A stretch of DNA of 22,819 nt from Pseudorhodobacter antarcticus. GTDB taxonomy: Bacteria > Pseudomonadota > Alphaproteobacteria > Rhodobacterales > Rhodobacteraceae. The position numbers were made by a program, and so were the translations under genes. The stretch spans positions 1-22,819 of the forward strand of contig CAMAQR010000058.1 of assembly GCA_945860375.1 (NCBI GenBank), read 5' to 3'. Shown piece by piece: positions 6,767 to 10,558 of this stretch. How positions within the stretch are numbered: position 1 is the first letter of the stretch; the number at the start of each line of letters is the position of its first letter. A model generated the notes under the pieces. The model was not told the origin of the DNA, did no database searches, and was given only the letters and a program-made list of their open reading frames with translations.

Positions 6767-8026
6767 ATGTCTGGGCAAGCCGTTGATATGATGCGCGATA
6801 TTGGTGCGCGCGCCAAGGCTGCGGCGCAAGAGTTGGCCTGCGCGTCCCAGGAACGCAAATATGCGGCGCTGATCGGGGCATCGGCCGCGGTCTGGGCGCG
6901 GCGACAGGAAATTCTGGACGCAAACTGTCTGGACATGGACCACGCTGCGGAAAAAGGCCTGTCGCCCGCGATGATGGACCGCTTGCGGCTGGACGAACAC
7001 CGCATCCGTGGCATCGTTGATGGCCTGCGCACTGTGGCTGAACAGGCCGACCCGGTTGGGCGCATTTTGGCCGAATGGGACCGGCCGAATGGTCTTCATA
7101 TCCAACGGGTTGCGACCCCGCTGGGCGTTGTGGGCGTAATCTATGAAAGCCGGCCAAACGTCACCGCAGATGCGGGGGCGCTGTGCCTGAAGGCCGGGAA
7201 CGCCGTGATTTTGCGCGGTGGTTCTGAAAGTTTTCAGTCGTCCGAAGCCATTCACGACTGCATGGTGCAGGGCCTGCGCGAGGCTGGGCTGCCTGAGGAT
7301 GCCATTCAACTGATCCCGACGCGTGACCGTGAAATGGTCACCGCCATGTTGCAAGCCGTTGACTTTATTGACGTCATCGTGCCGCGTGGGGGCAAAGGGC
7401 TGGTTGGCCTTGTGCAGCGTGAGGCGCGGGTACCGGTGTTTGCGCATCTGGAGGGCATCTGCCACGTCTACGCCGACCGTGATGCCGATCTGGAGAAAGC
7501 GCGCCGGGTGGTGCTGAACTCTAAAACCCGGCGCACCGGAATTTGCGGGTCGGCGGAATGCTTGCTGATCGACTGGCCGTTCTACACCAAGCATGGCGCG
7601 GTTCTGATCGAGGATCTGCTGAAGGCCGGGGTTGAGGTCCGCGCCACAGGCGAGTTGTTGAAAATCCCCGGCACAGTTGAGGCGCAACCCGATGATTTCG
7701 GGCGTGAATTTCTGGACATGATCATCGCTGTCAAATTGGTGGACGGGGTCGATGACGCAATTGCCCATATCCGCAAATATGGCAGCAACCACACCGAAAG
7801 CATCCTGACCGAGAATGACGCCACCGCGGCGCGGTTCATGCAGCGGTTGGACAGTGCGATTTTGATGCGCAACGCCTCCACCCAGTTCGCCGACGGCGGC
7901 GAGTTCGGGATGGGCGGTGAGATCGGCATTGCCACCGGCAAGATGCACGCGCGCGGGCCAGTCGGGGCGGATCAGTTAACCAGCTTCAAGTATATTGTCA
8001 CCGGGAACGGCACCATCCGCGCCTAA
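6767..8026 (+). CDS. proA: Glutamate-5-semialdehyde (gamma-glutamyl phosphate) reductase
   Basis: A 419-residue enzyme of the aldehyde-dehydrogenase fold. It reduces gamma-glutamyl phosphate with NADPH to glutamate-5-semialdehyde, the second step to proline. Visible motifs are [27 protein letters not shown] (120-146), [10 protein letters not shown], and the catalytic cysteine in [13 protein letters not shown] (Cys260). The C-terminus reads [22 protein letters not shown]. Length matches the family (E. coli 417). The ATG at 6767 is preferred over an in-frame GTG at 6752 because AAAGGG, supplied by the dispersed element, lies 6 bases upstream. The stop overlaps the chpT stop by 4 bases on the opposite strand. 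Confidence 0.97.
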
Positions 8027-8634
8027 AAACTCAGCCTGATCTGGGCTTCGCTGATTTCGGCGGTAAGGCGGCGGTGTTGACGGGTGAATTCGTCCGGCAC
8101 CAGCAGGAATTGCACATGCGCAGGGGCAACATCCGGGGCGGCGGCGGGGTTGATCAGACAGTCCCACAGGGCAGTGTCCAACTTCATCTTGGGGGCGGTG
8201 GCCACCAAAAGCCAGCGGGCATCGCCGCGTTCGATGCTGATGCGGCCGCCGTAAGGCAATGCGGATTCGGCGCATTGCAACAGCAAAAACACCAGTTTTA
8301 CATCGCGGCGCGGCAGATCGGGCGGGCTGATCCAATCGACTTTTATCCGGCCGCCATGGGTCATGTCTGACAAAATGGAGGTGACTTCATTGCGCCCGAT
8401 CCGCTGGTCTGCGCCGGTCGCGCCGTAAGCCACCCGGAAAAAGCGGATGCGGGCATTGGCATGGGCGACGCTTTCGGTGATCAGCGCCATTTCCGGCCCC
8501 TTGACCGCCCCATCCATCAGCATCAGTTCAACCCCGTTGCCGATGGCGCCGATCGGGCTGATAAGGTCGTGGCAGATGCGAGAGCCGACAAGTGCTGCGA
8601 GGTCAGGTTTTTCGGGCAAAGGGTACTCTTTCAC
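8023..8634 (-). CDS. chpT: ChpT histidine phosphotransferase
   Basis: About 203 residues from a GTG at 8634; an in-frame GTG at 8658 would add 8 residues and overlap the divergent gene. Neither start has a good Shine-Dalgarno, so the start is uncertain. The phosphorylated histidine lies in [20 protein letters not shown] (His22 by this numbering), the alphaproteobacterial ChpT signature. A degenerate histidine-kinase-like C-terminal domain follows, without clear ATP-binding boxes, as expected for ChpT. In Caulobacter and relatives, ChpT passes phosphate from the CckA kinase to CtrA and CpdR. In Rhodobacteraceae this pathway controls motility and gene transfer agents. The gene converges on proA with overlapping stops. 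A CtrA-type site lies about 200 bp away, in front of olsB. Confidence 0.9.
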
Positions 8635-8648
8635 GCAAGGGGGCAGAT

Positions 8649-8822
8649 ATGGCGGCACGACTGGAACCGGGGATGCTGGTGCGGCATCCGTCGCAGCCCG
8701 AGTGGGGGCTGGGGCAGGTGCAATCCAACATCAACGGCCGGGCGACGGTGAATTTCGAACATGCGGGCAAGGTGGTGATCGACCTGAAAGAGGTGGCATT
8801 GACGGTGGACTACCTGAGTTGA
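8649..8822 (+). CDS. Small DUF3553 protein
   Basis: A 57-residue protein, MAARLEPGMLVRHPSQPEWG at its start, then LGQVQSNINGRATVNFEHAGK. The pattern G-x-x-V-x-H-P-x-x-x-x-W-G-x-G-x-V with a closing hydrophobic/acidic strand matches DUF3553. It resembles the Tudor/CarD-like beta-barrel found at the C-terminus of UvrD/PcrA helicases and in transcription-coupling proteins. By that analogy it may contact RNA polymerase or another protein, which is inference. The ATG at 8649 is chosen because AAGGGGG lies about 6 bases upstream; an upstream in-frame ATG at 8592 would overlap chpT extensively. It is divergent from chpT with at most 14 bases between the starts. Confidence 0.78.
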   Translation: MAARLEPGMLVRHPSQPEWGLGQVQSNINGRATVNFEHAGKVVIDLKEVALTVDYLS

Positions 8823-8834
8823 CGCAGGGTGCGG

Positions 8835-8850
8835 TTAATATGGGGTTAAC
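8835..8850 (+). promoter_or_regulatory. CtrA-type binding site upstream of olsB
   Basis: TTAA-TATGGGG-TTAAC matches the full CtrA consensus TTAA-N7-TTAA(C). It lies 13 bases after the DUF3553 stop and 111 bases before the olsB ATG. I found no other full match in the window by eye. The presence of chpT, the phosphodonor of CtrA, next door strengthens the reading. It could act on olsB-olsA; action on chpT across the small gene is less likely. Confidence 0.6.
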
Positions 8851-8960
8851 ACAACCTCGGCGTGGTCTTGGTTTTTCCGGGCAGGGCAAGGCAGTTGCAA
8901 TGCGTTCCGACGCCGCCTAAGACGAATGCGCAGACCTAAGCCCGGACCCGACGCCCCCTT

Positions 8961-9743
8961 ATGACCGACGACGCGCCCTACATCCTGCGATTGGCCGAAA
9001 CAGAGCGTGATTTACGGGCTGCCCAAAGGTTGCGCTACGGCGTTTTCGTGCAGGAACTGGGGGGAAGTGGCCCCTTGGTTGACCACGCCAACCGGTTGGA
9101 GAAGGATGAGTTTGACCCGTTCTTCGAGCATCTGTTGTTGATCGACCCCAGCCGGGATGCGGATGATCTGGCCGATGTGGTGGGGGTTTACCGGCTGCTG
9201 CCGTCAGACCGGCTGGCGCTGTCGGGGCGGTTTTACTCGGAAAACGAATACGATCTGACGGCACTGAAAACATCAGGCCGCAGGTTGCTGGAACTGGGGC
9301 GGTCTTGCGTGCATCCCGACCATCGCGGCGGTTCGGCCATGCTGTTGCTGTGGAACGCCTTGGCGGAATATGTGCTGGAGCGGGAGATCGAGGTGCTGTT
9401 TGGCACCGCGTCCTTCCATGGCACCAATGTCAGGGCGCTGGCGCAACCGTTGTCCAATCTCCACCACCACCACCTTGCCCCGCTTGCGCTGCGGGTGACG
9501 GCCCGCGCGCCGCATTGCGCCGAGATGAACCTGATCCCGGCGGCGCAATTGGATCGCCGTGCGGCACTGGCGGGGACGCCGGCGCTGATCAAGGCCTATC
9601 TGCGGCTTGGGGGCTTTGTGGGCGAGGGGGCTTGGGTGGATCATGCCTTCAACACCACCGATGTTTGTCTGGTGATGGACACTGCAAGAATGAGCGCCAA
9701 GCACCGCGACTTCTACATCCGCAAATCGGCGCGGGACCCATGA
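8961..9743 (+). CDS. olsB: Ornithine-acyl-ACP N-acyltransferase (OlsB-like)
   Basis: A 260-residue GNAT-fold acyltransferase of the hemolysin/OlsB type. Recognisable blocks are AAQRLRYGVFVQELGG, EKDEFDPFFEHLLLID, VGVYRLLPS and ELGRSCVHPDHRGGSAMLLLWNALA, the acyl donor-binding region. GTASFHGTN and KAYLRLGGFVGEGAWVDHAFNTTDVCLVMD, the typical C-terminal block, follow. OlsB transfers a 3-hydroxy fatty acyl chain from ACP to ornithine to make lyso-ornithine lipid at the membrane. The assignment is supported by the overlapping downstream olsA-like gene. The ATG at 8961 follows a C-rich stretch without a strong Shine-Dalgarno. A CtrA-type site lies upstream. Confidence 0.87.
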   Translation: MTDDAPYILRLAETERDLRAAQRLRYGVFVQELGGSGPLVDHANRLEKDEFDPFFEHLLLIDPSRDADDLADVVGVYRLLPSDRLALSGRFYSENEYDLTALKTSGRRLLELGRSCVHPDHRGGSAMLLLWNALAEYVLEREIEVLFGTASFHGTNVRALAQPLSNLHHHHLAPLALRVTARAPHCAEMNLIPAAQLDRRAALAGTPALIKAYLRLGGFVGEGAWVDHAFNTTDVCLVMDTARMSAKHRDFYIRKSARDP

Positions 9744-10558
9744 GCGACTGGCGGACGGATGACACGCCGCCCTTGCGGTTGGGGGCGGCGGGCTGGCTGC
9801 GGGTGATCTGGCGTGGCGGACTCTTGGGCGGACTGACCTTTGGCGCGCTGGCGGTGCTGCTGTTGGTGCGGCTGCTGGAGCGGCCCTTGTGCGGGCAGGC
9901 GCGGCCGGTGACGCCGTTGATCACGCAGTTTGTGTGCAAGATGGCGTTTCCGATCCTGCGGCTGCATTTGATTACGCGCGGGCAGCCGATGCAGCAAAAG
10001 GGGGCGGTGGTGGCCAACCATGCCTCTTGGTTGGATGTCTTCGCGCTGAACGCGGTGCAGCGGGTGTATTTTGTGTCGAAATCCGAAGTGGCAGGTTGGC
10101 CCGGCATCGGCTGGCTGGCACGGGCGACGGGGACGGTGTTTATCACCCGCAGGGGGGCAGAGGCGAAGCGGCAACAGGCTGTGTTTGAAGGCCGATTGCG
10201 GGCAGGGCACAAGTTGCTGTTTTTCCCCGAAGGCACCAGCACCGATGCGACCCACATTTTGCCCTTCAAATCAACGCTGTTTGCGGCGTTCTACAGCCAT
10301 GGGCTGGACCATATCCTCTTTATTCAGCCCGTGACGGTGATCTATCACGCGCCACCCGGCGAGGACGCGCGGTTTTATGGCTGGTGGGGAGATATGGATT
10401 TCGCACCGCATCTGCTCAAAACACTGGCGGCGCGGCGGCAGGGCCGGGTTGAGGTGATTTTTCACCCCGAAGTGCCGGTGGACGTGTTCGCCAACCGCAA
10501 GGATCTGGCCGCGCATTGTGAGCGCGTGATCCGGGCCAGTCACACTCTGGCCGGGTAA
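9740..10558 (+). CDS. olsA: Lyso-ornithine lipid O-acyltransferase (OlsA, PlsC family)
   Basis: A 272-residue protein of the 1-acylglycerol-phosphate acyltransferase family. An N-terminal membrane segment (about residues 27-46) is followed by the catalytic NHASWLD motif at 93-99 (HX4D: His94, Asp99) and FPEGTS at 162-167. Paired with OlsB, it would acylate the 3-hydroxyl of lyso-ornithine lipid to complete ornithine lipid, a phosphorus-free membrane lipid. A general PlsC role in phospholipid synthesis cannot be excluded from sequence alone. Its ATG overlaps the olsB stop in an ATGA arrangement, showing tight translational coupling. A GC stem-loop follows. Confidence 0.85.
   Translation: MSDWRTDDTPPLRLGAAGWLRVIWRGGLLGGLTFGALAVLLLVRLLERPLCGQARPVTPLITQFVCKMAFPILRLHLITRGQPMQQKGAVVANHASWLDVFALNAVQRVYFVSKSEVAGWPGIGWLARATGTVFITRRGAEAKRQQAVFEGRLRAGHKLLFFPEGTSTDATHILPFKSTLFAAFYSHGLDHILFIQPVTVIYHAPPGEDARFYGWWGDMDFAPHLLKTLAARRQGRVEVIFHPEVPVDVFANRKDLAAHCERVIRASHTLAG

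Follow-up and report, generated by a model that had tools for sequence, protein, structure and literature searches.

The 22,819-nucleotide stretch of Pseudorhodobacter antarcticus DNA analysed here (the window) carries a full CtrA-type site in the spacer between a small DUF3553 gene and the ornithine-lipid genes olsBA. The site has a readable direction, and this direction faces chpT rather than olsB. We put the probability at roughly 60% that CtrA, bound here, activates a leftward promoter serving chpT, a reading drawn from sequence comparison; the olsBA target proposed in an earlier note is probably wrong, the site is most likely aimed at chpT, and a site of a known kind most likely has a new target in this gene.

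In these bacteria motility and gene transfer agents are governed by a relay whose middle step is ChpT, and the literature, as far as the available excerpts go, describes the control of chpT as coming from outside the CtrA loop. If the reading is right, part of the family closes the CtrA loop at ChpT, and the presence of the site would point to the species concerned. The direction of a CtrA site is readable from sequence, and it can correct a target that was assigned by proximity.

We infer a chain of CtrA binding, transcription start, activation and feedback, in which phosphorylated CtrA would occupy the directed repeat TTAACC-N5-TTAACC, from 8849 down to 8833, and RNA polymerase would use a -10 at 8822-8817 and initiate near 8810. 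The leftward transcript would cross DUF3553 in antisense and then read chpT. CtrA activity would in this way raise ChpT, giving a positive loop of the form CckA -> ChpT -> CtrA -> chpT.

The site and its neighbouring genes

A pattern search of the window located an exact TTAA-N7-TTAAC on the + strand at 8835-8850 (TTAATATGGGGTTAAC), where the earlier note had placed it, and confirmed it as the sole TTAA-N7-TTAA pair in 22.8 kb. At least one such pair arose in 2 of 100 dinucleotide shuffles of the window, and the 16-base TTAA-N7-TTAAC form in none. The two TTAA halves, 7 bp apart at 8835-8849, have the full CtrA-site pattern, and the element is a near-palindrome that matches TTAA-N7-TTAAC again on the opposite strand at 8834-8849. 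The flanking Cs that give the TTAACC form its direction are present, the leftward sequence reading TTAACCCCATATTAACC. The site stands 12 bases from the DUF3553 stop codon, 111 bp from olsB, which begins at 8961, and 200 bp from the likely chpT start (GTG 8635); the distances to olsB and chpT had been given correctly before. Coordinates and supporting evidence are collected in Table 1.

Table 1. Features around the CtrA-type site, in window coordinates.
Feature	Position	Strand	Evidence or remark
chpT, histidine phosphotransferase	8023..8635	-	PF10090, 97.5 bits; RICHDLISP in translation
DUF3553, 57-residue gene	8649..8822	+	PF12073, E 5e-27
Region near 8810 where a leftward chpT transcript is predicted to start	8806..8814	-	Deduced from the -10 position
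Predicted leftward -10, TCAACT, overlapping the DUF3553 stop codon	8817..8822	-	Offset 27-32 from box start; weak in clade
CtrA-type site, TTAACC-N5-TTAACC read leftward	8833..8849	-	Exact pair, N7-specific conservation, orientation
olsB sigma-70-like promoter, TTGCAA-N17-TAAGAC, distinct from the CtrA site	8895..8923	+	Score in spacers
olsB, L-ornithine N-acyltransferase	8961..9743	+	NCBIfam NF052554, 431 bits, equivalog cut-off 350
olsA, lyso-ornithine lipid O-acyltransferase	9740..10558	+	NCBIfam NF052552, 432 bits, equivalog cut-off 300

The names given earlier to the flanking genes are supported, olsB and olsA by scores above their NCBIfam cut-offs and chpT by its Pfam HPTransfase domain (97.5 against a cut-off of 22.9), with ChpT below both NCBIfam ChpT cut-offs (108 vs 240 and 107 vs 225). 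The longest chpT frame opens at 8658, and the GTG at 8635 is the likelier start. The earlier layout was thus sound in its gene names and overlooked the DUF3553 gene lying between chpT and the site. The window also has a tRNA gene, on the minus strand at 1278-1364.

DUF3553 is matched in 279 of 295 family genomes, and in most of the loci seen it is a stand-alone gene beside chpT and ahead of olsBA. chpT, DUF3553, olsB and olsA occur together in 190 of 200 loci, these loci having been located via OlsB or DUF3553. Six loci (L252, L255, L256, L258, L260 and L261) come from genomes lacking a CtrA match, no chpT was found in them either, and DUF3553 still adjoins olsB, so that the link between DUF3553 and olsBA seems to be independent of the relay. 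The available part of a study of DinX describes the DUF3553 domain of that protein as Tudor-like and closest to the RNA-polymerase-interacting domain of PcrA/UvrD (PMC6511836).

Conservation of the site and its likely regulator

The nearest OlsB matches of the window come from Rhodobacteraceae, including Cypionkella. We drew loci from three sources, 69 by OlsB, 30 from a DUF3553 search of 295 genomes and 100 as fetched regions; the 200 loci included 195 with DUF3553 before olsB, which came to 187 after identical ones were dropped, and these 187 all differ from one another in the 60 nt that follow the DUF3553 stop. An exact N7 pair is found in 31 of the 187 spacers, and all other spacings from 0 to 6 and from 8 to 20 give between 0 and 6. 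With up to one mismatch allowed, N7 is found in 86/187 spacers, N6 in 36 and the remaining spacings in 8-28. The observed N7 sites number 31 exact and 55 with one mismatch, where block-shuffled spacers gave 0.2 and 6.2 per set. When one member of each of two near-identical pairs is dropped, 31 exact sites remain, and 84 of 185 spacers retain a site with at most one mismatch. The first 70 loci span 834 kb and contain 18 N7 pairs, 12 of which fall within the 8.9 kb that these spacers occupy.

Conservation before olsB, which the earlier note had named as a check, holds in the genus to which the nearest relatives belong and is mixed in the wider family, where the counts run from the 31 exact to the 86 one-mismatch-tolerant spacers given above (n = 187). 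In the genus, the site occurs in 14 of 14 loci (10 exact and 4 with one mismatch), always leftward, and its distance from the DUF3553 stop stays at 12 or 13 bp although spacer length varies; this set was taken from the 14 of 15 genomes with an OlsB match, and some of its loci are also among the 187. Held-out loci (17 new and one repeat, L333, which equals L019 and has no box) contained an N7 site in nine cases. On an OlsB tree, to which 12 of the 18 loci from CtrA-less genomes were added (five were already present under other identifiers and L267 was left out), the 31 exact sites require at least 25 changes, and it follows that outside the genus the site has often been gained, lost or degraded. 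In one CtrA-positive genome (G058), in which chpT and olsB are apart, the box is at neither gene. Where chpT and olsB are together and DUF3553 was not found, a one-mismatch box lies between them in G218 and G251 and none in G143 and G089.

The regulator itself is widespread, with CtrA (NF045991) present in 268 of the 295 family genomes at the threshold used and above the cut-off in 267. Upstream of ctrA, an N7 site with at most one mismatch was found in 32 of 32 promoters, other spacings giving 2-16; these controls comprised 34 loci, of which two had no start found and one further locus was excluded from the matrix described below. The sites are mostly GTAAC-N5-GTTAACCATT, read towards ctrA, and an exact N7 site occurred within 400 bp of ctrA in 0/32 promoters. 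The far half of the ctrA upstream site (L216-L249) is nearly always GTAA, not TTAA, unlike the exact sites near chpT.

A further comparison is offered by comM, which we take to be one of the Com-family genes with predicted CtrA sites. N7 sites with at most one mismatch occur in 14 of 30 comM promoters, compared with 12 for N6 and 10 for N17, and TTAACC reads towards comM; in these upstream regions (L291-L320) the one-mismatch N7 sites mostly lie some 65-91 bp upstream of the model start. The comM sites agree with the predicted CtrA control of competence-type genes, sites of this kind having been predicted for Com-family genes of D. shibae in the part of that study available (PMC6473078). Taken with the N7-specific conservation, the ctrA and comM promoters give good support to the identity claimed for the element as a CtrA-type site: it looks like a genuine CtrA binding site, binding itself being predicted.

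Genomes without CtrA point the same way. The exact site is found in 0/18 loci from such genomes and in 31/182 of the others (Fisher one-sided p 0.04), and a site with at most one mismatch in 4/18 and 86/182 (p 0.03). In the CtrA-less subset with DUF3553 linked (n = 13), the p-values are 0.10 for the exact and 0.08 for the one-mismatch form. A tree-paired test of CtrA loss had six supported pairs usable, so that its sign test was unable to reach 0.05. The set of 182 includes L001-L069 and the window, among which CtrA was checked in four near genomes (L001, L003, L006 and L007) and scored above the cut-off in all four; 27 of the family genomes had no CtrA match, seven of them unlisted. The loss of the box in CtrA-less genomes agrees with CtrA as the regulator, in an underpowered comparison. 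Pseudorhodobacter sp. PARRP1, the genome of L006 (G004), has three CtrA matches above the family cut-off.

Direction of the site

At both ctrA and comM each half, read in the direction of the gene, gives TTAACC, which means that the site has a direction. We built a direction matrix from the flank positions only of the ctrA and comM sites; when each family was scored with the matrix of the other, 26 of 31 ctrA sites and 11 of 14 comM sites were oriented correctly. Scored with the joint matrix, the spacer sites read leftward, to the DUF3553/chpT side, in 28/31 exact cases and in 73/86 with at most one mismatch, the olsB-ward orientation accounting for only 3/31 and 13/86. The ctrA matrix alone gives 28/31 and 74/86 leftward, and the comM matrix alone 24/31 and 62/86. 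With the close clade of the window counted once and other kinship ignored, 22 of 25 exact sites (p 1.6e-4) and 67 of 80 sites with up to one mismatch are leftward. The held-out loci repeat the bias, with eight of nine N7 sites leftward. Outside the spacers TTAA is nearly unbiased (GGTTAA 45 vs TTAACC 40 on one side, 35 vs 28 on the other), though lone TTAA within the spacers does lean leftward (GGTTAA 10, TTAACC 2, n = 54).

The relatives also share a -10 bias on the same side. At offset 26/27 from the box, 30 of 86 sites have a TA on their left side and 2 of 86 on their right, and after removal of the loci with a DUF3553 stop near that offset the counts are 16 left against 2 right (n = 50); the offset was picked after the profiles had been viewed, so that p-values for it are not those of a planned test. 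The same offset carries a TA in 7/14 comM sites and in 3/31 ctrA sites, whose TA peaks at 32 and 35, and the -10 spacing is therefore taken from comM, itself a predicted CtrA target. Among the held-out N7 loci the TA is on the left in two of nine and on the right in none of nine, a small bias. In the genus of the closest relatives it was found in 0 of 14 loci, and in the window the DUF3553 stop codon sets some of the letters of the predicted -10.

Other searches for a promoter gave little. A generic promoter scan of 8560-9000 found none, and a leftward sigma-70 scan over DUF3553 was weak (26/185 loci vs 15 rightward), its largest bin holding 9 hits at 180-194 bp out. A chpT promoter inside DUF3553, sought as a constraint on third codon positions, gave no clear signal.

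Several points weigh against a chpT promoter at the site. It would give chpT an unusual leader, some 175 nt long and antisense to a different gene; the -10 is poor in the window's own clade; comM and ctrA disagree on the -10 spacing; the -10 bias of the held-out loci is small; lone TTAA in the spacers shares the leftward lean; and the exact sites are scattered over the OlsB tree. In the available parts of two D. shibae studies, chpT is unchanged in ctrA and cckA mutants (PMC7232146, PMC4046655); the authors of a KLH11 study, in the text available, saw no CtrA site upstream of chpT (PMC3692519); and the accessible text of a C. sphaeroides paper states that chpT is not reported in CtrA regulons (PMC11999139). 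Each of these three species may or may not carry the spacer site. Our search of a limited literature collection did not find CtrA control of a chpT promoter.

Competing readings and known systems

The earlier note had CtrA controlling ornithine-lipid synthesis from this site, a claim that we find unsupported: the orientation of the site and the -10 of the relatives face chpT, and olsB has a promoter of its own. The family form of that promoter, TTGCAA/T-N17-TARAAC, is strongly conserved, reaching a score of at least 13.5 in 140/187 spacers and in 8/187 shuffles, on a score devised after 31 of the spacers had been viewed; where it reaches that score, the median distance from the end of the -10 to olsB is 34 nt. 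On orientation and the relatives' -10 we rejected olsBA as the main target of direct control by CtrA. An additional, indirect effect on olsBA, via the antisense transcript or the shared site, may exist.

That CtrA nevertheless controls olsBA from here, say by activating the olsB promoter from an upstream position, is unlikely in our judgement, and the evidence on it is divided. Where the promoter is callable, an exact site precedes the olsB -35 in 25 of 26 loci (12.6 expected by room) and a site with at most one mismatch does so in 62 of 71 (32.0 expected), the gaps from box to -35, which span 10-102 bp and are mostly 21-59 bp, are feasible for an upstream activator, and in L066, where DUF3553 was not found, a TTAACC half faces olsB. 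Set against this, besides the orientation and the relatives' -10, are the lack of helical phasing in those gaps (Rayleigh p about 0.47) and the distance of the site from the DUF3553 stop, which is held across the genus as the spacer varies; fixed spacing on one side and unphased gaps on the other fit a promoter facing away better than an activator of olsB. Our limited literature collection yielded no link between CtrA and ornithine lipid or olsB, the one paper on bacteria of this kind to contain both terms being a Brucella review. Somewhat easier to entertain, as a minority possibility, is a site that serves both sides, activating chpT leftward and exerting a modest effect on olsBA, or on read-through from DUF3553 into olsBA, rightward. 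The site stands between both units, and at R. sphaeroides fliF2/fliL2 a single full site can, according to the available part of that work, serve two divergent promoters (PMC6180460). Since a leftward transcript would run across DUF3553 in antisense, it could moreover influence the rightward unit. Against a two-sided role, a rightward TA at the comM -10 spacing is found in just the two of 86 sites noted above, and co-transcription is conjectural. A further elaboration, in which a CtrA-driven chpT promoter behind DUF3553 couples relay feedback to antisense down-tuning of the DUF3553-ornithine-lipid unit, strikes us as rather doubtful.

The PhoB box is a CTGTCAT repeat and the FnrL box is TTGAT-N4-ATCAA. 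In the 187 spacers, Pho boxes (at most 4 mismatches) were not clearly enriched, at 15 against 10.4 in shuffles, and Fnr boxes (at most 2 mismatches) were not enriched, at 6 against 8.8. These near-shuffle levels make it very unlikely that another regulator, be it PhoB, FnrL or another OmpR-type protein, uses the TTAA repeats, the more so as the N7 signature is that of the ctrA promoters and the exact site is absent from the CtrA-less loci, a difference that is not significant when relatedness is allowed for. In favour of such a regulator, the available text of one study ties aminolipids, including ornithine lipids, to phosphate limitation (PMC6298996), and that of another predicts an FnrL site at the D. 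shibae chpT promoter (PMC7232146). A chance match without function we consider extremely improbable: exact sites are patchy across the family, and in KLH11 a full CtrA site before cckA had no effect according to the accessible part of that paper (PMC3692519), so that a full upstream site need not regulate, but the N7-specific enrichment, the unbroken presence in the nearest genus and its repetition in held-out loci all speak against chance.

We return to the preferred reading, a CtrA-activated promoter facing chpT. It would share its half-sites and their spacing with the TTAA-N7-TTAAC of Caulobacter and with the CtrA-dependent promoters of Rhodobacterales (ctrA autoregulation, fla2). As at ctrA and comM, TTAACC would read towards the gene served, and in relatives a TA stands at the comM -10 spacing. 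It differs in its TA spacing, which is not that of ctrA, in that chpT is not a reported CtrA target in the literature available, and in that a gene, DUF3553, intervenes between the site and its likely target, so that the leader would cross this gene in antisense. In the parts available, work on Rhodobacterales predicts CtrA feedback on ctrA, cckA and divL (PMC2877005; PMC4046655), which is likewise a regulator acting on its own phosphorelay; here the loop would close on chpT. XrpA of Cereibacter sphaeroides, which according to the available text represses chpT and ctrA, likewise exerts direct transcriptional control from the chpT upstream region, and is an Xre-family repressor, not CtrA (PMC11999139).
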